The notes beneath the pieces are model-generated. The model worked only from the letters and a program-made list of their open reading frames with translations. It was not told the DNA's origin and made no database searches. Made by a program: the position numbers and the translations under genes. A stretch of DNA of 64,000 nt from Chloroflexota bacterium. Lineage in GTDB: Bacteria > Chloroflexota > Limnocylindria > QHBO01. Below are positions 10,406 to 35,087 of the stretch, piece by piece (positions within the stretch are counted from its first letter, which is position 1; the number at the start of each line of letters is the position of its first letter). The stretch is taken from assembly GCA_025699005.1 (NCBI GenBank), contig JAILWI010000001.1:434001-498000 (forward strand), in the 5' to 3' direction.

Positions 10406-11485
10406 TCAGTCATGCTGCAGCTCCAGCGGCCTGAGCTCCCCCAGGCTCTCGGCCACCACCACGGCGTCGTCGCCGGCCTGGAGCCGGAAGTCGGTCGGCG
10501 GGTTCGTCATCGAATGCCCGTCGCGGGTCACGGCCAGCAGTGTGGCCCGATGATCGCCCCGGAGCTTCGTCGAGAGCTCGTCGATCGAGAGGCCGACGTA
10601 CGTGTCGGGCAGGGCCACGCGGTAGAGCTCCGACCCCTCACCACCCGAGACGATATCGGTCACCAGCTCGGAGAGGCCGGGATAGAGCGCCGATCGCGCC
10701 AGCAGGCGCGAGGCGAGGCGCGAGGTCACGAGGATCTCATCGGCATCGGCGCGCCGGAAGTGGTCGACGTGCATCGGGTTGTTCGCCTCGACCACGGTGC
10801 GGACGCTCGGGGCGATCGATTCGATGGCCATGACCGCCAGGATCGAGCGCATGTCGGCCTCGTTGCTCGGATCGGCCGGGAAGACGATGGCCGACGCCGC
10901 CTCGCGGATCCCGCAGCGCTCGAGGTCGTCCGTGCTCGTGATGTCGCCCCGCACGAAGTACACGCCCTCGCCGGCCGGATTCCGCTCGCTGTCGTGGAGC
11001 AGCACGACCTTCGTCGTGAACTCGTCGCCGCGGAGCTCCTCGATGAGGTCGCGGGCGGTGGTGTTCCAGCCGCACACGACGATGTGATCGCGGTAGCCCG
11101 CAGCGCCCATACCCTGGCCCTCCTTGAGCAGGAAATCGATGACGAACCCGACGACGGCGCCGGTCATGGCGGCCACGATGGCGACGCCGAAGAATGCGAG
11201 CAGCCATCCGACCACGAAGCCCCCCGGCGAGCTCACGTAGCTCGCATCTCCGGAGCCGATGACGGTGGTGATGGCCCAGTAGAAGCTGCTCCCGAACCCT
11301 GCCAGCGTCAGCTTCTCGGGTTCGAGGACGGTCACAGCAGCGGCGGCCACGAGCACGAAGGCGATGACAGCCGTCATCAGCGAGGCGAAGAAATGGCGGT
11401 CCAGCTGGCCGCCGATGCGCCGCGCATGGAAGCCGATCCGCCGCAGCAGCGGCGCGGCGAAGAGCGACCTCAGCGGGTTCGTCAA
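10406..11485 (-). CDS. two-TM ion channel with RCK (TrkA-N/TrkA-C) domain
   Basis: 359-residue channel subunit. A first membrane helix (about 33-52), a pore loop and a second helix (about 90-112) are followed by a cytoplasmic RCK module: Rossmann-type HIVVCGWNTTARDLIEEL at about 138-155 and a TrkA-C-like domain at about 280-350. The overall plan is that of MthK-type potassium channels. The selectivity filter is unusual, TVIGSGD at 74-80 where TVGYGD is expected, so ion preference is uncertain. Gene precedes the SDR by 21 nt. Confidence 0.85.
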   Translation of the reverse strand: MTNPLRSLFAAPLLRRIGFHARRIGGQLDRHFFASLMTAVIAFVLVAAAAVTVLEPEKLTLAGFGSSFYWAITTVIGSGDASYVSSPGGFVVGWLLAFFGVAIVAAMTGAVVGFVIDFLLKEGQGMGAAGYRDHIVVCGWNTTARDLIEELRGDEFTTKVVLLHDSERNPAGEGVYFVRGDITSTDDLERCGIREAASAIVFPADPSNEADMRSILAVMAIESIAPSVRTVVEANNPMHVDHFRRADADEILVTSRLASRLLARSALYPGLSELVTDIVSGGEGSELYRVALPDTYVGLSIDELSTKLRGDHRATLLAVTRDGHSMTNPPTDFRLQAGDDAVVVAESLGELRPLELQHD

Positions 11486-11608: not shown

Positions 11609-11637
11609 TTGTCAAATTGTCGCGCCGAATGCATGAT
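11609..11637 (+). promoter_or_regulatory. candidate promoter of the first FGLLP-type gene
   Basis: TTGTCA at 11609-11614, 17 nt, then CATGAT at 11632-11637. A matching pair lies at the same place before the paralogue at 16159, which supports it being functional. Confidence 0.4.
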
Positions 11638-11690
11638 CCGCGCGATCGGGACGATCCGGTCAGTGCCCATCGTCGCACGGGGGACAGTTG

Positions 11691-13763
11691 GTGCAACGGT
11701 CGCGTGCCCTCCCGGTCGCTTCTGCGCGGCTTGCCTTGGCGCTCATCTCAGCCCTCGCAATTACCTCCATCCTCTTTATTCGCACAGCGCCGCCCGTGGC
11801 AGCAGCCGAGCCTGATGCGAGCCACTTCATTGCGGCCGCCGAGGACGCAGGCCTGCCATGCGAGGTCGCGGGCGACAACTACTGGGTGTGCGAGGGTCCG
11901 CCAACAGCCCACGAGGGCTACTTCGCCACGATCAGTGACGAGCGGCCCCTCAACTTCAGCGTCGACGTCCATCGGTACTGGAACGAGCCCCGTGCCGCCG
12001 AGCCCGACGTGGTCGCGCTCATGGATCGCTTCATCGTCCTCGCGCTCGGCGAGGATGGCGCCGCGCGGCAGTGGCTTCGCGACGTGCATGCCGCTCAGGA
12101 AGCGACGGCCACGCTGGAGCGGGGTCAATGGACGCTGACCTGGTACGCCGACCAGGAGGCGAGCCCCGACAACGCCTTCCCGAAGAACTTCCTGGTTCTG
12201 AACTACAACGAGCAACCGAGCGACGAGCAACCGAGCAGCTCCGCCGTGCCCATGCCGACGGCCATCGCTCCACCGGACGATTGGTCGACCGGTGGACGCA
12301 GCACGTACAGCGGCGTCTGGACCAAGACGGCGGTCTCGATCGATGGCGAGCTGCTCCCGGACGCCGAAGCGGTTGGCGAGTCGGCCCCCGGTGAGCTCGT
12401 CGTCGATTGCCGCGGTGAGGTCGGGCGCTGCGATGTCGGGCCGACCCCGGATGGGATCTTCGATGCCGAGGTGCTCGGCGAGGGCACTTTGACCGGGACC
12501 CAGGAGACGGAGACCAGCATCTCCATGGAGGCGTGCCCGGTCGACACCGCAGTGCGGACGACGGAATTGGACGTCGCGTACGACGCCGCCGGCGCCACCA
12601 TCACGGTCGACGAACGAACCACACCGGGGCGGTGTGAGGTCGACGGCGCATCCTGGGCGGCACTCGATGCCACCTGGGTCTTCGAGGGCGTCCTGACCGC
12701 CTACCAGGGCCCGGAGGTCGACGTCGAGGTCGGCGGTAGCGAGCCGCCCTCCGCACAGGATCCGGACGCGGCGCCGGTCGGGAACGTCGGCGAGCCAGCG
12801 GCGCGGCCGTTCGCCGACGCAGTGCCGGCGGTGAGCGAGATCAGCACCGACCCGATCGTCCTGCTCCAGAGCGCGCTGCTGGCGGCCCTGCTCGTCTTCC
12901 TCATGCCATTCCCCAGTCAGCTGTTCAACTCGACCCTCGAGACCCACGAGGACGAGGTGCGCCGCTGGTTCCGCCTCGACCGGCTCGGCGTCGTGGCCGG
13001 CGGCATCGGCGCCTTCTGGGCGTCGTGGCCCGGCGTCGCGATCTTCACCCTGCTGGCCGCCCTGCTCTACGGCTTCCTGGACCCAGGCTTCGGCATGGGC
13101 CTCGGCTCGCTGGCGACCTTTGTGGGCATGCTGCTCGGCATCGTGCTGGTGACCGCGGCGTTCTCGGTGCCGGTCGTGCTCGCCCATCGGCGCATCGGCT
13201 CCGGCTGGACGCTCAAGGTGGTGCCGCTCAGCCTGCTCATCGGCGTGGCCTGCGTGCTGCTCAGCCGGCTGACCGGCTTCCAGCCCGGCTACCTGTACGG
13301 GCTGCTGATCGGCCTGGCCTTCGCCCGTGAGCTGTCGGCCGCGGAGGAGGGGCGGGCGACCGCCATCGGCGCCGTGGCCATGCTCGGGGTGGCGCTGGTC
13401 AGCTGGCTGGCGCTGGGTGCCCTGCCCGACGGCGACGGCTTCGGCCTGGTGGTGGCGCGCACGAGCCTGGCGGCGCTGATGGTGGCCGGGCTCGAGGGCG
13501 TGGTGTTCGGCCTGCTGCCGATGCGCTTCCTGCCCGGCGAGTCGCTCTATGCGTGGAACCGCATCGCGTGGGGCGTCCTGCTGGCTCTTGGCGCCTTCGC
13601 CTTCTTCCACATCCTCATCAACCCGGCCTCGGGCTACCTGTCCGACACGAGCCGCACACCGCTATTCACCGTGCTCGGCCTGCTCCTCGGCTTCAGCCTC
13701 GTCTCGGTGGCCTTCTGGGCCTGGTTCCGATTCCGGGGCGAGCAGCGCGATGCGCAGGCATAG
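11691..13763 (+). CDS. exported-domain membrane protein, FGLLP-motif family (paralogue 1)
   Basis: 690-residue protein of unknown function. A signal peptide or anchor at about 8-35 leads into an exported part: module A (about 38-170) begins SHFIAAAEDAGLPCE, has a second Cys in YWVCEG and ends GQWTLTWY; a different beta-rich, Cys-containing module (about 200-350) follows. The C-terminal half (about 375-680) is a polytopic domain of about nine helices with VVFGLLPMRFLPGESLYAWNR, the motif of FGLLP-motif membrane proteins, and a PFPSQLFNSTLETHEDEVRRW segment just after its first helix. The GTG at 11691 is chosen because the paralogue at 16159 starts at the equivalent codon in a near-identical context (CGCACGGGGGAC upstream). 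A TTG lies one codon earlier. Confidence 0.8.
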   Translation: MQRSRALPVASARLALALISALAITSILFIRTAPPVAAAEPDASHFIAAAEDAGLPCEVAGDNYWVCEGPPTAHEGYFATISDERPLNFSVDVHRYWNEPRAAEPDVVALMDRFIVLALGEDGAARQWLRDVHAAQEATATLERGQWTLTWYADQEASPDNAFPKNFLVLNYNEQPSDEQPSSSAVPMPTAIAPPDDWSTGGRSTYSGVWTKTAVSIDGELLPDAEAVGESAPGELVVDCRGEVGRCDVGPTPDGIFDAEVLGEGTLTGTQETETSISMEACPVDTAVRTTELDVAYDAAGATITVDERTTPGRCEVDGASWAALDATWVFEGVLTAYQGPEVDVEVGGSEPPSAQDPDAAPVGNVGEPAARPFADAVPAVSEISTDPIVLLQSALLAALLVFLMPFPSQLFNSTLETHEDEVRRWFRLDRLGVVAGGIGAFWASWPGVAIFTLLAALLYGFLDPGFGMGLGSLATFVGMLLGIVLVTAAFSVPVVLAHRRIGSGWTLKVVPLSLLIGVACVLLSRLTGFQPGYLYGLLIGLAFARELSAAEEGRATAIGAVAMLGVALVSWLALGALPDGDGFGLVVARTSLAALMVAGLEGVVFGLLPMRFLPGESLYAWNRIAWGVLLALGAFAFFHILINPASGYLSDTSRTPLFTVLGLLLGFSLVSVAFWAWFRFRGEQRDAQA

Positions 13764-13851
13764 ATCGCGAACCATGACGACCCCAGGTGGACTGCGGCAG
13801 CTGAGTGGTGACCTGTCCAGGACCTGATCATCGACCATGGAGGGGAATGCA

Positions 13852-14394
13852 ATGAACCTTTGGCCGTCCCGCGCCCGGACCGCGACCGTCCTGGCATTGA
13901 TCGCGTTGCTCACCGCGGCGTGCGGCGCCGCCCCGGCGAACACTCTCGACGCAACTCCCGAAGCAACGCCCGACGCGACGACGAGCGAACCGGAGGCGTC
14001 CGAAACCGCTGACGCCACACCCGAGCCGACGGAGGCCGAGCTGTCGCTCCCCGATGACGTCAGCTTCGAGTCGACAGAGAACTCGACAATCACCGCCGTC
14101 GCATCGTTCGATGGATCGGCGGAGGATGGTGTCGCGATTTCCATCCGGAATGTCGAGAGTGACTACGACAACCCGCTCGGCTTCGCCGCCCTCCTCCTGG
14201 AGGGGACGTGCGCCGAGCAGACCGAGCCAGACTTCGAGGGGGCGATCGACGTCGTTACGTTCGACCAAGGCGAGAACGCCGAATTGCTCGTCAGCACGGA
14301 GCAGCTCGGCGAGATCCTGGCCTCCCCGCATTCGATCCTCATCACCAACGGACCGGGAGACCTGATGTTGGCCTGCGCCGACATCGGCGCCTGA
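13852..14394 (+). CDS. small lipoprotein of unknown function
   Basis: 180 residues: signal peptide with lipobox TAAC (Cys24), a Thr/Glu/Pro/Ala-rich spacer to about residue 65, then a compact domain with two cysteines (GTCAEQ and LACADIG). An ATG 15 nt upstream is inside the ribosome site; GGAGGGG sits 6 nt before the ATG at 13852, which decides the start. I recognise no family. It lies 88 nt after the first FGLLP-type gene and 29 nt before a second lipoprotein gene, in the same direction. Confidence 0.75.
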   Translation: MNLWPSRARTATVLALIALLTAACGAAPANTLDATPEATPDATTSEPEASETADATPEPTEAELSLPDDVSFESTENSTITAVASFDGSAEDGVAISIRNVESDYDNPLGFAALLLEGTCAEQTEPDFEGAIDVVTFDQGENAELLVSTEQLGEILASPHSILITNGPGDLMLACADIGA

Positions 14395-14423: not shown

Positions 14424-15107
14424 GTGAGAACCTTACACGGGAAACATTGGACGTTCGCCCTGGCGATGGTGGTGGTGGTGGTGGCTGCGTGCTCGTCTGG
14501 GACGTCCGGCTTTCCGGCTCAGACGGCGGAGCCCGAGGCGACAGAGGCTTCGCCATCACCGGCCCGGGCGGACTCGCCCTCGGCATCGGCGGACGCGTCG
14601 CCGACCGAGGCCGCAGCAATGGCGCTCGACATTCCGCTCGAGCCCCCCTGCCATGCGATAGACATGTCCGCGGTGGAGGCGCTCCTCGGCGAGGAGCCAG
14701 TTGCGGAAACCGAGTGGGTGCCCGGGGAGAAGCCGTACGGCCTGGACGTGGAGGCCACGACATTCGGCTGCGCCTACGAAGGCCAGTCCGGGTCGGACGG
14801 TCTCGAGCGTGAATTCGCCCTCACCATGGCCGGCGAGGAGATGAGGGTCGAGGCCTGGAACGAGTTCTACGACAGCGCCGATACGTGTCGGAAGCTTGAG
14901 CCGCCGTCCGCCATTGGGGCAGACGCCATCGGCGCACTGGTGTGTCCCAGCGCGATCGACGATTGGAGCCGCGTGATGCTGGCTGGCGTCTTCGGCGTGG
15001 CCGGAGTCCAGTGTTGGGTCCTCGTGCCGGATGACGAGATCGATCCGACCCTCGAAGCGAGCGTCATGTCGGAATGCGCTCGAACCCTCATCGAGCTGGG
15101 CTCGTGA
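14424..15107 (+). CDS. lipoprotein, DUF3558-like in layout, function unknown
   Basis: 227 residues starting with GTG, placed by GAGGGG 7 nt upstream. A Val-rich signal ends in the lipobox VAAC (Cys23); a Ser/Ala/Glu/Pro linker runs to about residue 68. The globular part has four spaced cysteines (PPCHAID, FGCAYEG, DTCRKLE, LVCPSA and later QCWVLV, SECAR), like actinobacterial DUF3558-type cell-surface lipoproteins, but I cannot confirm membership. A strong hairpin 48 nt after its stop probably ends the transcript before the heliorhodopsin gene. Confidence 0.75.
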   Translation: MRTLHGKHWTFALAMVVVVVAACSSGTSGFPAQTAEPEATEASPSPARADSPSASADASPTEAAAMALDIPLEPPCHAIDMSAVEALLGEEPVAETEWVPGEKPYGLDVEATTFGCAYEGQSGSDGLEREFALTMAGEEMRVEAWNEFYDSADTCRKLEPPSAIGADAIGALVCPSAIDDWSRVMLAGVFGVAGVQCWVLVPDDEIDPTLEASVMSECARTLIELGS

Positions 15108-15154
15108 TCGGCGGCTGAGCTCTCCGCGAATCTCGGCGACCCGTCGGGGAGCGG

Positions 15155-15175
15155 GGCCGGGCTGCCCGCCCGGCC
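15155..15175 (+). terminator. GC-rich hairpin, likely terminator
   Basis: An 8-bp perfect stem GGCCGGGC/GCCCGGCC with loop TGCCC. No T-tract follows, which is common at this GC content. It separates the lipoprotein unit from the heliorhodopsin gene. Confidence 0.5.
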
Positions 15176-15291
15176 GCACCCCGCGTGCGAGGGGTCATCG
15201 CCGAGTCCGCACGGGCCGAACGGCCCCGACTCCCGGCTCTCTTCGTGCCGAGCGAGGGCGGTACCCTGATGTGACACACGCGGAGTAACCG

Positions 15292-16041
15292 ATGACCGAG
15301 CCGAGCATGGGGCGACTGCGCCTCTACAACGCGGTGATGGGCGTCCTGCACGCGGTCCAGGGGATCGCCGTCGTCCTGCTCTCCACCGAATTCGCGCTGC
15401 CGGTCACGGCGGCGTTCATGGAGGGTCCGCCCGGCAGCCCGACCTCCACGACCGAGCTCTTCGATCTGCCTATCGGTCCCGCCGTCGCCGCATTCCTCTT
15501 CCTCTCGGCGCTAGCGCACTTCCTCCTTGCCGGCTCCGCCTGGGGCTGGTACCGCCGAATGCTCGCCGAGAGCGTCAACTACGCCCGCTGGATCGAGTAT
15601 TCGGTCAGCTCGTCCCTAATGATCGTGCTGATCGCCATGCTGACCGGCATCGCCGACATCGCCGCGCTGGTCGGCCTGTTCGGCGTGAACGCCTCGATGA
15701 TCATGTTCGGCTGGCTCCAGGAGCGCTACGAGCGGCCGGGTCGGCCGGGATGGCTTCCGTTCATCTTCGGGTCGTTCGCCGGGATCGTGCCGTGGATCGC
15801 CATCGGCATCTACCTGTGGAGCCCCGGCTCCGCCGCCGAGCCGCCCGCCTTCGTGTACGGGATCTTCGTCTCGCTGTTCGTGTTCTTCAACTCGTTCGCG
15901 CTCAACATGGTGCTGCAGTACCGCCAGGTCGGACCGTGGCGCGACTACCTGTTCGGCGAGCGGGTCTATGTGCTCCTGAGCCTCACGGCGAAGTCGGCGC
16001 TGGCCTGGCAGGTGTTCGCGGGGACACTCGTCCCGGCCTGA
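15292..16041 (+). CDS. heliorhodopsin
   Basis: 249-residue, seven-helix retinal protein of the heliorhodopsin family, which sits inverted in the membrane (N-terminus inside) relative to type I rhodopsins and has a long photocycle without clear pumping. The family hallmarks are intact: retinal Schiff-base Lys234 in LTAKSALAWQVFAGTLVPA, counterion Glu102 in RWIEYSVSSSLMIVLIA, the GIADIAALVGLFGVNASMI stretch of helix 4, FGWLQE, FNSFALN, and cavity histidines His20 (GVLHAVQ) and His76 (ALAHFLLA) matching His23/His80 of 48C12. The AB loop (about 33-57) keeps FALPVT and GPPGS. GGAG lies 9 nt before the ATG. It appears to be monocistronic, behind a hairpin at 15155. No carotenoid or retinal-forming gene is in the window. 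Confidence 0.96.
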   Translation: MTEPSMGRLRLYNAVMGVLHAVQGIAVVLLSTEFALPVTAAFMEGPPGSPTSTTELFDLPIGPAVAAFLFLSALAHFLLAGSAWGWYRRMLAESVNYARWIEYSVSSSLMIVLIAMLTGIADIAALVGLFGVNASMIMFGWLQERYERPGRPGWLPFIFGSFAGIVPWIAIGIYLWSPGSAAEPPAFVYGIFVSLFVFFNSFALNMVLQYRQVGPWRDYLFGERVYVLLSLTAKSALAWQVFAGTLVPA

Positions 16042-16158: not shown

Positions 16159-18177
16159 GTGCCACGGTCGCTCCTCGCCGCCCTCGTCGCGGCCGTCCTT
16201 GTCGTGCCGCTCCTCGCGCATGGCTCCGCGGTCAGGGCCGCCGAACCAGCCCCTCCCGAGCCATTCGTCGAGGCGGCAGGCGATGCCGGGCTGGGGTGCG
16301 AGGCGTATGACTCCGGGAGCGGAGGATCCGGCTACCTGTGTGCAAGCTTCGAGGAGAGCAGCGAACGATACGTCGGCGCCACCATCGCCCCGTTCGATCG
16401 TGGGACGACCCTGACCGTGACCCGCAACGCGTTCAGCGGCGGCCACCAGGTCGCCGAGCCGGACGTGTACGCGCTGATGGTCGAGTACGTGCGGCTGGCG
16501 CTGGCCGACGATGCCGAGGCTCGAGGGCTCGCGTGGCTGGCGGAGATGAACGCCCGCCCCGAGATGTCCGGTGAGCTCACGGTGGGCGACTGGCGGCTGG
16601 AGTGGCTGTCCGAGGAGTGGGACGTCACCGAGGGGTTGACGACGTCCGTGCACCTGGGCCTCTCGCAGTTCGTCTCGGAGTCGCCGACGACGTCGCCGGG
16701 GGGAGCCGATGGCGCACTGATCTCCCACGCCGAGTCGTACGGACTGGCGTGCTCCAGCACCGATGTGGGCACGCAGTGTCGGAGGCAGGAACTGGAGGGG
16801 GCGACGGGCATCGTCTACTCGATGACGCTGGAACATGACGACGAGGGCGAGCTGCGCTGGATCAGCGCCAACGTCTCATCCAGCGAGCCGGAGCTGCCAC
16901 CGGATGCGATGGCGTTCCTCCGCGGGGTCGTCGAGGAATCTCCGGTGAGCGACACCGCCGGTCTGCTCGCCTGGCTGGACGACATGCCGGGAAATTCGCA
17001 GGCTGAGCGGTTCCGATCCGGGGAGTGGTCCGCAGACTGGTTCGAGCAGTCGGATGCGGCCGGGCTGGCGTGGTCGCTCAGCCTCGTCCGCGAGGCGCAG
17101 GGACCGTCCGCACCGGCCTCGCCGGACGCCGTGCCGGCGGTGCCGTCCCCATCCGCCAGCCCGGGGCCGGACGCAGAACCGCTCATCCCGAGCGGCCCCG
17201 GGCCGCGTCGTTCGTTCGCCGAGTCCGTCCCCGCGCTGACCGAGGTCAGCACCGAGCCGATCGTGCTGCTCCAGAGCGCCCTCCTCGCCGCGCTGCTCGT
17301 GTTCCTCATGCCCTTCCCGAGCCAGCTGTTCAACTCGACCCTGGAGACCCACGAGGACGAGGTGCGGCGCTGGTTCCGGCTCGATCGTGTCGGCAGGCTC
17401 GGCTCCGGGATCGGCGCCTTCTGGGCGAGCTGGCCGGGCGTCGGCGTATTCACGCTGCTGGCTGCGCTGCTCTACGGCTTCCTGGACCCCGGCTTCGGCA
17501 TCAGCCTCGGCTCGCTGGCCACCTTCGTGGGGATGCTGCTCGGCATCGCGCTGGTCACCGCCGCCTTCGCGGTGCCGGCGGTGCTGGCGCATCGGCGCAT
17601 CGCCTCCGGTTGGACGCTCAAGGTCGTGCCGGCAAGCCTGCTCATCGGCGTCGCCTGCGTCCTGCTGAGCCGGCTCACCGACTTCCAGCCGGGCTATCTG
17701 TACGGCCTGCTCATCGGCCTCGCCTTCGCTCGCGAGCTCAGTGCCGCCGACGAGGGTCGCGCCACCGCCCTCGGCGCCGCGGCCATGCTTGCCGTGGCCT
17801 TCGTCAGCTGGCTGGCGCTGGGGGCGCTGCCCGAGAGCGAGGCCTTCGGCCTGGTGGTCGCGCGCACCGCCCTGGCGGCCCTGATGGTCGCCGGCCTCGA
17901 GGGCGTGGTGTTCGGCCTGCTGCCGATGCGCTTCCTTCCCGGCGAGTCGCTCTACGCCTGGAACCGGATCGCCTGGGGGGCGCTGCTGGCCATCGGTGCC
18001 TTCGCCTTCTTCCACATCCTCATCAACCCGGCGTCCGGCTACCTTTCCGATACGAGCCGCACGCCGTTGCTCACGGTGCTCGGGCTGCTCATCGGCTTCA
18101 GCCTGGTGTCGGTGGCCTTCTGGGCCTGGTTCCGATACCGGGACGAGCCGGCGGAAGCGGAGCCACAGGGTACCTAG
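16159..18177 (+). CDS. exported-domain membrane protein, FGLLP-motif family (paralogue 2)
   Basis: 672 residues from a GTG start 7 nt after GGGGGAC. A signal peptide (about 1-28, ending VRAAEP) is followed by two tandem copies of the module found once in paralogue 1: copy one at about 34-175 (FVEAAGDAGLGCE ... GDWRLEWL) and copy two at about 190-310 (LISHAESYGLACS ... GEWSADWF). A Pro/Ser linker leads into a membrane domain (about 355-660) almost identical to that of paralogue 1, including PFPSQLFNSTLETHEDE and VVFGLLPMRFLPGES. Function unknown; the plan, sensing or binding modules outside joined to a conserved multi-helix core, suggests a receptor or transporter. Its TAG stop is shared with the convergent gene at 18174. 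Confidence 0.82.
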   Translation: MPRSLLAALVAAVLVVPLLAHGSAVRAAEPAPPEPFVEAAGDAGLGCEAYDSGSGGSGYLCASFEESSERYVGATIAPFDRGTTLTVTRNAFSGGHQVAEPDVYALMVEYVRLALADDAEARGLAWLAEMNARPEMSGELTVGDWRLEWLSEEWDVTEGLTTSVHLGLSQFVSESPTTSPGGADGALISHAESYGLACSSTDVGTQCRRQELEGATGIVYSMTLEHDDEGELRWISANVSSSEPELPPDAMAFLRGVVEESPVSDTAGLLAWLDDMPGNSQAERFRSGEWSADWFEQSDAAGLAWSLSLVREAQGPSAPASPDAVPAVPSPSASPGPDAEPLIPSGPGPRRSFAESVPALTEVSTEPIVLLQSALLAALLVFLMPFPSQLFNSTLETHEDEVRRWFRLDRVGRLGSGIGAFWASWPGVGVFTLLAALLYGFLDPGFGISLGSLATFVGMLLGIALVTAAFAVPAVLAHRRIASGWTLKVVPASLLIGVACVLLSRLTDFQPGYLYGLLIGLAFARELSAADEGRATALGAAAMLAVAFVSWLALGALPESEAFGLVVARTALAALMVAGLEGVVFGLLPMRFLPGESLYAWNRIAWGALLAIGAFAFFHILINPASGYLSDTSRTPLLTVLGLLIGFSLVSVAFWAWFRYRDEPAEAEPQGT

Positions 18178-18779
18178 CGCAGGGGTGCGCTCAGCTGGCC
18201 CTCGACCAGAGGCTCTCCGACGATCCCCGCCAGCCGCTCACCGATCGCCCACCAGTCGAACTCGGCGGTGACCTCGCTCGCGGCGATGCTCATCGAGCGC
18301 TCCGGCGCCAGGTAGACGGGCAGGATGCGGTCGAGGATGGCCTCGATCTCGTCCCGGAACGCATCCGAGGTCGAGCGCACCCCATCGGCCTGGAGGTCGA
18401 CGTCCGGCAGGAGACGCACCGAGAGGTCGTAGCTCCGCGCCCATCGGCGGATGAGCGGCTCGACGCCGAAGGGATCCTCGCCGCCGGTGACGCGCAGGTA
18501 GTAGGCGAAGTTGTCGACCACCGACCGGTCCGTGACGAGGATCTCGGCGCGGCGAGCCAGCTCGAGCTCCTGCTGGACCTGCGCCATGAGCACCCACAGC
18601 TGCGCCTCGGGCGTCGCTCCCTCGTTCAGGCCCAGCGGATTGAAGCGGACGACCTCGCGCCCCACCTCGACGGAGCGACCCGCCCGGCCCACGGTCGACG
18701 CGAAGGCATGCACGGCGTTCGACTTGCGGACCGAGTGTGAGCCGATGAACGCGATCTTGGCGGGGCGGGCCCAGGGCAT
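18174..18779 (-). CDS. AAA_28/NadR-like P-loop protein with degenerate Walker A
   Basis: 201 residues resembling deoxynucleoside-kinase-like AAA_28 ATPases: N-terminal strand plus P-loop KIAFIGSHSVRKSN (positions 8-21), an EILVTDRS segment that would be the Walker-B-like strand, and an R-rich lid-like stretch near RRWARSYDL. The P-loop reads GSHSVRKSN where GSHSVGKT would be normal; the Gly-to-Arg change before Lys may impair or alter nucleotide binding. The gene ends on the CTAG shared with the FGLLP-type gene and starts without a ribosome site. Confidence 0.65.
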   Translation of the reverse strand: MPWARPAKIAFIGSHSVRKSNAVHAFASTVGRAGRSVEVGREVVRFNPLGLNEGATPEAQLWVLMAQVQQELELARRAEILVTDRSVVDNFAYYLRVTGGEDPFGVEPLIRRWARSYDLSVRLLPDVDLQADGVRSTSDAFRDEIEAILDRILPVYLAPERSMSIAASEVTAEFDWWAIGERLAGIVGEPLVEGQLSAPLR

Positions 18780-31799: not shown

Positions 31800-32738
31800 A
31801 TGAAGCATGACGTGAAGTTCGGGGCCAACTGCTGGAACCAGTACAGCGAATGGTCCGCGCTGCGCGAGGCCGGCATCCGGGCCGACGCGCTCGGGTTCGA
31901 CTCGCTCTGGACCTGGGACCATCTCTATCCCATCGTCGGGTCACACGAGGGACCGATCTTCGAGGGCTGGCTCACCCTCGCCGCATGGGCCGAGCGGACG
32001 GAGCGTGTGACCGTCGGCCTCATGGTCGGCGCCAATACGTTCCGTCATCCGGCGATCGTCGCGAAGATGGCGTCGACCCTCGACCACATCAGCGGCGGCC
32101 GAGCCGTGCTCGGCATCGGCGGCGCGTGGTTCGAGACCGAGCATCGCGCCTACGGCATCGAGTTCGGTGGATCTCCCGGGGAGCGCCTGAAGTGGCTCGA
32201 GGAGGCGGCCCGCATCATGCGCGGCATGCTCCACGGCGAGCGGCCGTCAGGAAACGACTTCTACGACACCCACGAGGTTCGGCTCGACCCGCCTCCGGTC
32301 CAGAAGCACCTGCCGCTCCTCATCGGCGGCGGTGGCGAGAAGAAGACGCTGCGCATCGTCGCCCGCTACGCGGATGCCATGAACGTCGGCGGCGGCTTCG
32401 ACAACGTGCGGCGCAAGGACGAGATCCTTCGCGGGCACTGCCAGGAGGTCGGCCGCGACGAGTCGGAGATCGAGCGGACGACCGGCGTCGGCACCTGCAT
32501 CATCCGCGACGACCCGGCCGAGGCGCGGCGGGTCTTCGAGGCGATGTTCGAGCGCAACGGCCAGGCGGAGCCGTGGAAGGACCAGATGGTCGGAACGCCC
32601 GATCAGATCGTCGAGCGCCTACGACCCTACCTGTCCATCGGCTTCCGGCACTTCATCGTCGGGTTCCCCTCGCCGTACGACGCCGAGTCGATGGAGCGGC
32701 TGATCACCGAGGTAAAGCCAGCGCTGGCAGGCGCCTGA
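31800..32738 (+). CDS. LLM-class F420-dependent oxidoreductase-like protein
   Basis: 312-residue luciferase-like TIM barrel: KFGANCWNQYSEWSALREA start, GFDSLWTWDHLYPIVG, GLMVGANTFRHPAIVAKMASTLDHISGGRAVLGIG and PLLIGGGGEKKTLRIVARYAD are typical. F420 is the likely cofactor because the next gene, 7 nt downstream, begins the F420 biosynthesis run. Substrate unknown. Confidence 0.87.
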   Translation: MKHDVKFGANCWNQYSEWSALREAGIRADALGFDSLWTWDHLYPIVGSHEGPIFEGWLTLAAWAERTERVTVGLMVGANTFRHPAIVAKMASTLDHISGGRAVLGIGGAWFETEHRAYGIEFGGSPGERLKWLEEAARIMRGMLHGERPSGNDFYDTHEVRLDPPPVQKHLPLLIGGGGEKKTLRIVARYADAMNVGGGFDNVRRKDEILRGHCQEVGRDESEIERTTGVGTCIIRDDPAEARRVFEAMFERNGQAEPWKDQMVGTPDQIVERLRPYLSIGFRHFIVGFPSPYDAESMERLITEVKPALAGA

Positions 32739-32745
32739 CGCCACG

Positions 32746-33690
32746 GTGGCCCGCAGGACCAGGGTCACGCTGCTCGCCGGCGGCACCGGCGGCGCGAAGC
32801 TCGCGCGCGGCCTGGCCCTGCTCGGCGACGCGGTGGATCTCACCGTCATCGCGAACGTCGCCGACGACACCGAGATGCACGGGCTGCACGTCAGCCCGGA
32901 CATCGATGCCATCTGCTACCACCTCGCCGGCATCGCCGATACCGAGCGCGGCTGGGGGATCGCCGGCGACACCCGATCGGCGCACGCCATGCTCGAGCGG
33001 CTCGGCGCGCCGGCGTGGTTCACGATCGGCGACGCGGACCTCGCGACGAGCATCGAGCGCACGCGGCGGCTCCGCGACGGTCAGCGGCTGACGGAGGTGG
33101 TCACCGCGATGGCGTCCGCGCTACGGATCGGCGCGCGGGTGCTTCCCGCGACCGACGACCGGTACCGCACGGTGGTGGTGACCGACGCCGGCCCGCTCGA
33201 GTTCCAGGACTACTTCGTCCGCCTCCGCCAGGAGCCCGAGGTGCGCGAGCTCACCTTCGACGGAGCCGACACCGCCAGGCCGACGAACGAGATGCTCGAG
33301 GCGATCGCCGGCGCCGACCTCGTCGTCATCGGCCCGTCCAACCCTCTCGTCAGCATCGCGCCGATCGTCGCCCTCCCCGGCGTGCGCTCGGCGATCGAGG
33401 CAGCCCGCGGTTCGCGCGTGGCGGTCAGCCCGATCGTCGCGGGGGCGGCCCTCAAGGGACCGGCGGCGCGCATGCTCGCCTCGCTGGGGCACGAGGTCTC
33501 GGCGCGTGGAGTGGCGCGAATCTATGCGGGACTCGTCGAGCGGTTCGTCATCGACCTCGCCGACGCGGATGCCGCTCCCTCGATCGAGGCCCTGGGCCTG
33601 GCGGTCGACGTCCTGCCGACGATCATGTCGGGCGACGAGCAGGCGCGTGCCTTGGCCGCGGCCGTCGTGGAGCCGGCAACCGGGGCCTGA
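32746..33690 (+). CDS. cofD: 2-phospho-L-lactate (or phosphoenolpyruvate) transferase CofD/FbiA
   Basis: 314 residues, GTG start 7 nt after the LLM gene. It joins the lactyl-phosphate moiety to the deazaflavin FO to make F420-0 (or dehydro-F420-0). LLAGGTGGAKLARGL (about 10-24), NVADDTEMHGLHVSPDID and the GPSNPLVSIAPI motif are diagnostic. Next in the run are cofC and cofE, 36 nt and a further 4-nt overlap away. The FO synthase gene (fbiC/cofGH) is not in the window. Confidence 0.95.
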   Translation: MARRTRVTLLAGGTGGAKLARGLALLGDAVDLTVIANVADDTEMHGLHVSPDIDAICYHLAGIADTERGWGIAGDTRSAHAMLERLGAPAWFTIGDADLATSIERTRRLRDGQRLTEVVTAMASALRIGARVLPATDDRYRTVVVTDAGPLEFQDYFVRLRQEPEVRELTFDGADTARPTNEMLEAIAGADLVVIGPSNPLVSIAPIVALPGVRSAIEAARGSRVAVSPIVAGAALKGPAARMLASLGHEVSARGVARIYAGLVERFVIDLADADAAPSIEALGLAVDVLPTIMSGDEQARALAAAVVEPATGA

Positions 33691-33714
33691 TTCGGCGCGA
33701 GCCGGGGATCGCGA

Positions 33715-33720
33715 TATCCT
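33715..33720 (+). promoter_or_regulatory. -10-like box of an internal leaderless promoter (cofC)
   Basis: TATCCT with a 6-nt gap to the GTG at 33727, in the 36-bp space after cofD. Confidence 0.45.
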
Positions 33721-33726
33721 CTGCGG

Positions 33727-34332
33727 GTGACAACGACGCGGATCATCATCCCGCATCGCGGGCTCGAGGCGGCCAAGACGCGGCTCGCTCCGAGCCTCTC
33801 GCCCGAGGAGCGGATCATGCTCGCCAGCCAGCTCCTCCAGCGCGTCCTCAGGGTGACCCGCGAGGCGTGTGACGACGTCGTCGTGATCTCGCCGGCGCGC
33901 GGTCTGGCCGAGATCGTCGAACCCTCGGGAGCCCGGCTCATCGTCCAGCGCGGGATGGGACTGAACGAAGGTCTCGAGCAGGCCCGCTTCGAGGCGCTCG
34001 TAGACGACGTCGGGACCCTCATCGTGCTCCATGGAGACCTCCCGAACCTCCAGGCTCACGACGTGGAGACGCTGTCTGCGTCGTTGCCGTTTGATGGCTC
34101 GCCGGGCGTGGCGATCGCGCCGGATCGGGCGGGGACCGGCACGAACGGGCTCGCGCTCCGGCCGCCGGGCGTCATTCGATTCCGCTTCGGCCGCGGCAGC
34201 TTCGCCGCTCATCTCCAGGAGGTCGAGCGCGCCGGTGTGCCACTGGTCGCCGTGAACCGGGCGGGGCTGGCATTCGATCTCGACACGCCGGAGGACCTCG
34301 CCCGCTGGCTCGAGCTCGGCGACGCGGCGTGA
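33727..34332 (+). CDS. cofC: 2-phospho-L-lactate guanylyltransferase CofC/FbiD
   Basis: 201 residues with GTG start. It makes the guanylylated lactyl (or enolpyruvyl) donor used by CofD. The nucleotidyltransferase start IIIPHRGLEAAKTRLAPSLS and the LIVLHGDLPNL motif are conserved, followed by FGRGSFAAHLQEVERAG. It ends in a GTGA overlap with cofE. Confidence 0.93.
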   Translation: MTTTRIIIPHRGLEAAKTRLAPSLSPEERIMLASQLLQRVLRVTREACDDVVVISPARGLAEIVEPSGARLIVQRGMGLNEGLEQARFEALVDDVGTLIVLHGDLPNLQAHDVETLSASLPFDGSPGVAIAPDRAGTGTNGLALRPPGVIRFRFGRGSFAAHLQEVERAGVPLVAVNRAGLAFDLDTPEDLARWLELGDAA

Positions 34333-35087
34333 CCTCCCGGATCGAGCTCATCGGCCTCGACGGCATCGGCGAGGTCCAGCCGGGCGACGACGTCGGTGAG
34401 CTGATCGCCACGGCGGCCGCGGCGAGCGACCTCGAGATCGTCGACACCGACGTCCTCGTGGTGACCCAGAAGATCGTCTCCAAGGCGGAGGACCGGCTCG
34501 TCGCGCTCGACACCGTCGAGCCGAGCCACCTGGCGCGGAGTTGGGCCGAACGGTGGAATCGCGATGCACGGCAGGTCGAGCTCGTGCTGCGCGAGTCGGC
34601 GTCGATCGTCCGCATGGCCCCCGGCGGGCTCATCATCAGCCGCACCCGGACCGGCCTCGTGTGTGCGAACGCGGGCGTCGACGTGAGCAACGTCGGCGGG
34701 GGTGCGGTCGCCGCACTGCTGCCGCTCGACCCGGACGCATCGGCCGCCCGGATCCGCGGCGTGGTGCGCGAACGCACCGGATCGGCGCCGGCGGTGATCA
34801 TCAGCGACTCGTTCGGACGGCCGTGGCGCAACGGGATCGTCAACGTCGCAATCGGAACGGCGGGGATCGAGGGTCTCGTGGACCTCCGCGGCCAGCCCGA
34901 TGCCGCCGGCCGGCCGATGCAGGCGACGGTCATCGCCGCCGCGGACGAGCTCGCGTCGGCGGCCGATCTCGCCGGGGGCAAGGCGGATCAGCGGCCGGTC
35001 GTCGTCGTGCGCGGCTACGCGTGGCGTCCGTCGGATTCGACCGCCGCCGACCTCGTCATGCCGGTCGACAAGGACCTCTTTCCCTAG
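34329..35087 (+). CDS. cofE: F420-0:gamma-glutamyl ligase CofE
   Basis: 252 residues, GTG start overlapping cofC. It adds the gamma-linked glutamate tail to F420-0. Visible: GIGEVQPGDDVGELI, the metal/GTP site VVTQKIVSKAEDRLV, CANAGVDVSNVG, and ISDSFGRPWRNGIVNVAIG. It is a stand-alone ligase, unlike actinobacterial FbiB, which carries a fused nitroreductase-type domain. A separate nitroreductase-family gene lies at 52461, but I have no evidence that it serves here. Confidence 0.95.
   Translation: MTSRIELIGLDGIGEVQPGDDVGELIATAAAASDLEIVDTDVLVVTQKIVSKAEDRLVALDTVEPSHLARSWAERWNRDARQVELVLRESASIVRMAPGGLIISRTRTGLVCANAGVDVSNVGGGAVAALLPLDPDASAARIRGVVRERTGSAPAVIISDSFGRPWRNGIVNVAIGTAGIEGLVDLRGQPDAAGRPMQATVIAAADELASAADLAGGKADQRPVVVVRGYAWRPSDSTAADLVMPVDKDLFP

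Follow-up and report, generated by a model that had tools for sequence, protein, structure and literature searches.

A canonical heliorhodopsin at a variable site in a Chloroflexota genome with no detected retinal pathway

Heliorhodopsins (HeRs) are a family of photoreceptors with a slow photocycle and internal proton transfer. A gene of this kind was predicted from the sequence of an apparently non-phototrophic, F420-rich bacterium, in a locus with no retinal-forming gene nearby, and this raises the question of whether the protein is a genuine HeR, from where it obtains its retinal and on which partner it acts. The host belongs to the Chloroflexota. Throughout, the window is the whole stretch of 64,000 nucleotides that was analysed, and all positions refer to it. 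The presence of F420 genes in the window was confirmed, with genes for a luciferase-like monooxygenase, CofD, CofC and CofE (F420 gamma-glutamyl ligase) standing in a row at 31800-35084. The HeR gene and the codons of the four residues singled out in the original prediction are as follows.

15292..16041, + strand: heliorhodopsin (HeR) gene, 249 aa (PF18761, NF038020, PDB 48C12, AF2 model)
15349..15351, + strand: His20 codon; aligns with His23 of 48C12; His in 57/83 HeRs, Leu in 24/83
15517..15519, + strand: His76 codon; aligns with His80 of 48C12; His in 59/83, Leu in 24/83
15595..15597, + strand: Glu102 codon, counterion; aligns with E107 of 48C12; E in 83/83
15991..15993, + strand: Lys234 codon, retinal Schiff-base lysine; aligns with K241 of 48C12; K in 83/83

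The ORF starts with ATG and has a ribosome-binding-like GGAG upstream. Searched against the heliorhodopsin families, its product matched positions 1-242 of the 242 in the Pfam model PF18761 (346.9 bits, threshold 26.7, E=7e-104), and it also matched the NCBIfam equivalog NF038020, 'heliorhodopsin HeR' (343.9 bits, cut-off 100, 5e-103). Strong phmmer matches in the PDB were to heliorhodopsins only, including 48C12 (2e-80) and TaHeR (5e-63). There was no Pfam match of the protein to type-1 rhodopsins (PF01036), and helix 7 carries the motif SxxxK, not DxxxK. Moreover, an AF2 model (mean pLDDT 92.1) shows seven helices and the extracellular beta-hairpin usual for HeRs, and the ten PDB entries that match it best are without exception HeR structures (TM 0.89-0.94), with 6su4 (48C12) at TM 0.94. 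The model was built from a 44-row alignment in which one row (L088), translated from the wrong strand, is noise, which leaves the conclusions unaffected. The protein is beyond reasonable doubt a complete, canonical heliorhodopsin (type-3 rhodopsin). The original prediction was right on this point, and the identification is an ordinary one, of an already known kind of protein.

Conservation of individual residues was recomputed on 83 gene-called HeR proteins. Lys234, Ser230 and Glu102 are invariant over these homologues. Lys234 sits inside model helix 7 (219-246), the location on which the prediction turned, with the SxxxK motif formed by Ser230..Lys234, and Glu102 lies inside helix 3 (97-117). 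All four residues named as diagnostic, Lys234, Glu102, His20 and His76, match their 48C12 counterparts K241, E107, H23 and H80. The hydrogen-bond network described for 48C12 comprises 14 residues, N16, H23, Q26, S76, H80, Y92, R104, E107, S111, E149, E230, S237, K241 and W246 (PMC9726877), and 14/14 are identical in the window HeR. Lysines and arginines are confined to the N-terminus and the loops predicted to lie inside, with 0 in the outer loops, a pattern that fits the inverted topology with a cytoplasmic N-terminus as far as charge can predict it.

Across the family, the two cavity histidines (20/76 in the window HeR, His23/His80 in 48C12) are replaced by leucine jointly in 24/83 HeRs and never singly. 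In the tree these 24 proteins group together in a single starred clade, made up of Dehalococcoidia and Thermoleophilia-type sequences (loci L015, L021, L024, L025, L028-L030, L035, L042, L047, L052, L054-L056, L058, L060, L062-L065, L075, L076, L078 and L079). The clade offers a natural test of the need for the His pair as proton acceptor.

A member of the same family, the viral V2HeR3, is reported to conduct ions, and the window HeR might likewise transport protons or other ions in the light. We regard this as very improbable, given that the window HeR belongs with 48C12 and TaHeR, to which it is 53% and 45% identical, and has the full network, that the proton of 48C12 is not released toward the bulk surface (PMC9726877), and that pumping had not been shown for HeRs as of PMC8612252.

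With regard to retinal supply, the absence of retinal-forming genes near the HeR extends to the whole host genome (94.5% complete), in which a profile search found no Blh/Brp (PF15461) and in which no RPE65-type oxygenase, phytoene synthase or type-1 rhodopsin (PF01036) was found. The genome-wide search for blh/brp or carotenoid cleavage genes proposed with the prediction thus yielded neither Blh/Brp nor an RPE65-type oxygenase. The Blh model had been silent throughout the first search, and as a positive control it was run on 35 other HeR genomes, where it matched in 2. RPE65 was found in 2 others of the 35 and phytoene synthase in 8. Both retinal-forming enzymes are missing in 31/35, and these together with phytoene synthase in 25/35; most of these genomes are drafts of unknown completeness, and that the lack is common can still be called safe. 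A HeR host without a known retinal route is therefore the usual situation for the family, and the missing genes, which the prediction had presented as remarkable, do not mark out a HeR carrier as exceptional. HeR in non-phototrophic Chloroflexota has, moreover, already been published (PMC10444878). The label 'non-phototrophic' for the present host is a reading of its gene content, resting on the absent carotenoid genes and the absent pumping rhodopsin.

Because no carotenoid- or retinal-making gene was found, retinal from outside the cell is the likeliest source for the window HeR. Functional rhodopsins are made by a bacterium without a known retinal-biosynthesis gene (PMC7734400), and for others uptake of retinal from their surroundings has been proposed (PMC11561045). 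The present case lends support to the idea that organisms with HeR often rely on retinal produced by others. Two members of the class with small genomes, G029 and G037 (L090, L091, L093-L096), combine HeR with a type-1 rhodopsin and phytoene synthase; no Blh/Brp or RPE65 oxygenase was detected in either.

We then turn to the genes around the HeR, which are these.

10406..11485, - strand: TrkA-N/RCK-type channel-like gene (PF02254, PF22614); by synteny orthologous to the left flank of the G003 HeR
11688..13763, + strand: cola_mem (FGLLP motif) membrane protein, paralog 1 (NF041501); absent from G003
13837..14394, + strand: small lipoprotein of no family; lipobox LIALLTAAC; no Pfam/NCBIfam match
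14424..15107, + strand: small lipoprotein of no family; lipobox VVVVVAAC; no Pfam/NCBIfam match; start approximate (open frame from 14208)
15108..15291, + strand: gap upstream of the HeR gene, with GGAG at its end; terminator unsupported
16159..18177, + strand: cola_mem membrane protein, paralog 2 (NF041501); own promoter-like site
18174..18779, - strand: AAA_28 protein (PF13521), convergent; by synteny orthologous right flank of HeR

The HeR gene had been placed behind a terminator-like hairpin, between lipoproteins and two paralogous membrane proteins. Two ORFs with lipoboxes do lie upstream and the membrane proteins are indeed paralogs, but these flank the block of HeR and lipoproteins, one on each side. 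The hairpin finds no support: the gap contains no T-run, a terminator scan gave no + strand match within it, and 15108-15291 folds no more stably than shuffled sequences do (z = -0.22). The paralogs are 81% identical over the C-terminal membrane domain, with a divergent extracytoplasmic part. Promoter-like sites lie at 11609 and 16091, just upstream of the two copies and within similar upstream sequence, and paralog 2 thus probably has its own promoter, duplicated with the gene. The duplication brackets the HeR gene, and the upstream sequences of both copies are similar. The HeR of the congener G003 has no adjacent neighbour on its strand, and it is most likely that the window HeR gene is transcribed alone. 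The AAA_28 protein shows a weak resemblance to the NadR kinase domain, with a TIGR01526 score below the cut-off of that model. By eye, the channel-like protein carries TVIGSGD as a pore-like motif, compared with the usual TVGYGD of potassium channels.

HeR is present in 12/61 genomes of relatives searched, the host's own counted, and in 2/9 within the genus; among the 12, G047 has a short stretch only and in G037 the contig ends within the HeR gene. The other carrier in the genus, G003, is 'Chloroflexi bacterium isolate TY_HYHR_2_bin.31', and its contig C33, when reverse-complemented, is identical to the JAICRD010000042.1 locus. Here HeR is preceded by the divergent channel gene and followed by the convergent AAA_28 gene, then a ColicinV/trypsin gene and a carbon-nitrogen hydrolase; apart from its cola_mem and lipoprotein genes, the window has the same order. 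In the congener G005 the site is empty, with the channel gene 59 bases after AAA_28, and in a further congener, G002, the channel gene follows at ~410 bases, again without HeR. In G011, from another genus, the slot is filled by a membrane-anchored protein that looks by sequence like an adenylate/guanylate cyclase, and in G013 a cola_mem gene adjoins AAA_28 and HeR is absent. These differing contents show that the HeR slot is variable. The short stretch in G047 (C61:8599-8796) lies within a long contig and matches positions 1-62 of the HeR model; it is perhaps a HeR remnant or a chance match. Farther afield, Nocardioides flavus and Janibacter terrae (L070, L072; also L045), from different families, have identical HeR proteins within a shared gene block, a pattern suggestive of a recent transfer or of contamination in an assembly.

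Between the window and G003, dS is 0.65 for HeR and 0.66, 0.66 and 0.60 for the syntenic flanks. As HeR dS equals that of the flanks, HeR was most likely inherited in place from the common ancestor of the two genomes. The HeR protein tree leaves their sisterhood unshown and unrejected (AU p=0.39 for joining them). HeR dN is 0.185, ~2-3x that of the flanks, and with dN/dS of ~0.28 the gene is under purifying selection, though less constrained than its neighbours. A recent horizontal gain was considered and rejected on the equal dS values. These data also bear on the idea of HeR as a passenger, an opsin that was acquired by recent transfer or is decaying and goes unused for want of retinal. The patchy distribution (12/61 relatives) and the lack of a known retinal pathway in the host speak for it; however, all functional residues have been kept since the split from G003 at the above dN/dS, the matching dS values argue against recent transfer, missing retinal genes are the rule among HeR genomes, and functional rhodopsins occur in a bacterium that lacks any known retinal-biosynthesis gene (PMC7734400). 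We therefore consider a passenger improbable.

The neighbours had been expected to point to the partner of HeR, and the relatives contradict this: the G003 HeR has neither the paralogs nor the lipoproteins next to it, and the channel gene and AAA_28 adjoin without HeR elsewhere. The comparison left the G003 HeR alone at the same site, between the TrkA-type channel gene and AAA_28. A functional unit of HeR with the cola_mem proteins or lipoproteins on either side, as their adjacent, co-directional genes in the window could suggest, is thus the least probable reading, since the paralogs are lacking at the orthologous HeR, a related cola_mem gene lies beside AAA_28 without HeR in G013, and paralog 2 has a promoter-like site of its own, common to paralog 1. 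An operon with the paralogs or lipoproteins as a conserved unit was likewise rejected, as none stand beside the G003 HeR. The channel gene lies to the left of HeR and is divergently transcribed in both HeR-carrying members of the genus, so that HeR might regulate it and couple light to a flux of potassium or other ions. However, it adjoins AAA_28 without HeR in G005 and G002, and its position is thus independent of HeR; ~3.8 kb of other genes separate the two in the window, and the pairing was not seen in the other HeR loci compared. We regard such regulation as distinctly unlikely.

A wider comparison of gene families near ~85 HeR loci, as raw counts with no background control, identified no conserved partner, with no family near more than 11 loci; genes of two-component systems and of the SDR/epimerase type, together with DegV, Nudix and ABC genes, turn up repeatedly but rarely. 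Genomic evidence, including linkage to two-component genes, has led to HeRs being described as sensory (PMC8612252). No histidine kinase or response regulator was found within 10 kb of the window HeR, with the downstream 10 kb checked by called gene sequences; the nearest pair is upstream at 980-2742, ~12.5 kb off. Nor is a photolyase adjacent to HeR or in an operon with it; the host photolyase is on another contig (G000:C12). Photolyase is present in 5/12 HeR-carrying and 4/49 HeR-lacking relatives (Fisher p=0.011, uncorrected for phylogeny or genome completeness), and G003 has HeR with no detected photolyase in a genome that is 83% complete. Among possible partners, only the host photolyase has any support, and that support is weak. 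Light is harmful to SAR202 Chloroflexota isolates that carry two HeR genes close to a photolyase gene (PMC10444878), in keeping with a photoprotective role of HeR in Chloroflexota.

Taken together, we think it probable that this is a canonical HeR that uses external retinal, undergoes a slow photocycle and regulates a partner encoded elsewhere, serving light sensing or a response to photodamage and not energy. The protein would bind all-trans-retinal taken up from outside the cell and absorb green light (~530-550 nm; 13 HeRs absorb at 530-556 nm, PMC7807009), entering a slow photocycle. The Schiff-base proton would pass via Glu102 to the region of His76 and His20 and stay inside the protein; in 48C12 the Schiff base gives up its proton, though not in the direction of the bulk surface (PMC9726877). 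The resulting change in the cytoplasmic loops may then regulate the partner, allowing a non-phototroph exposed to light to sense it or to respond to photodamage. It is unlikely that the stand-alone HeR instead acts in trans on a partner with which HeRs of this lineage have not yet been connected, for instance the TrkA/RCK-type channel at the syntenic site, for light-controlled ion flux with retinal supplied wholly by neighbours. With an empty site in sister species and inheritance in place, the locus is a well-resolved Chloroflexota case that bears on the open question of HeR function.

Lastly, we compared the window HeR with known systems. HeRs bind and regulate glutamine synthetase (AbHeR, PMC9529153), photolyase (TfHeR, PMC9769723) and the ABC transporter OmrDE (OcHeR, PMC11109279); these belong to the same family and have tested partners, and no gene for glutamine synthetase, photolyase or a multidrug ABC transporter adjoins the window HeR. 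The HeR of G003 (L002, L117) shares 75% identity, the genomic site and the flanking genes, and unlike the window HeR it has no adjacent cola_mem or lipoprotein genes. Other HeRs of the same class (G018, G020, G025, G057, G032, G039 and G051) are 42-52% identical to it, N-terminally longer and placed in a separate, well-supported (starred) clade, with a MerR-like regulator, an SDR/epimerase-type gene and a photolyase as neighbours. Therefore, the class holds two distinct HeR lineages. TaHeR, from the archaeal host Thermoplasmatales archaeon SG8-52-1 (PDB 6is6, 7u55), is ~45% identical and has the fold, the retinal lysine, the counterion and the Met at the colour-tuning site in common with the window HeR, whereas its first extracellular loop differs. 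The actinobacterial 48C12 (PDB 6su3, 6su4, 6uh3) is 53% identical over the full length and shares the fold, including the extracellular beta-hairpin. Relative to 48C12, the window HeR has short loop deletions, and at the reported colour-tuning site it has Met206 in place of Gln, which predicts, by analogy with the HeRs of PMC7807009, an absorption maximum slightly shorter than that of 48C12.
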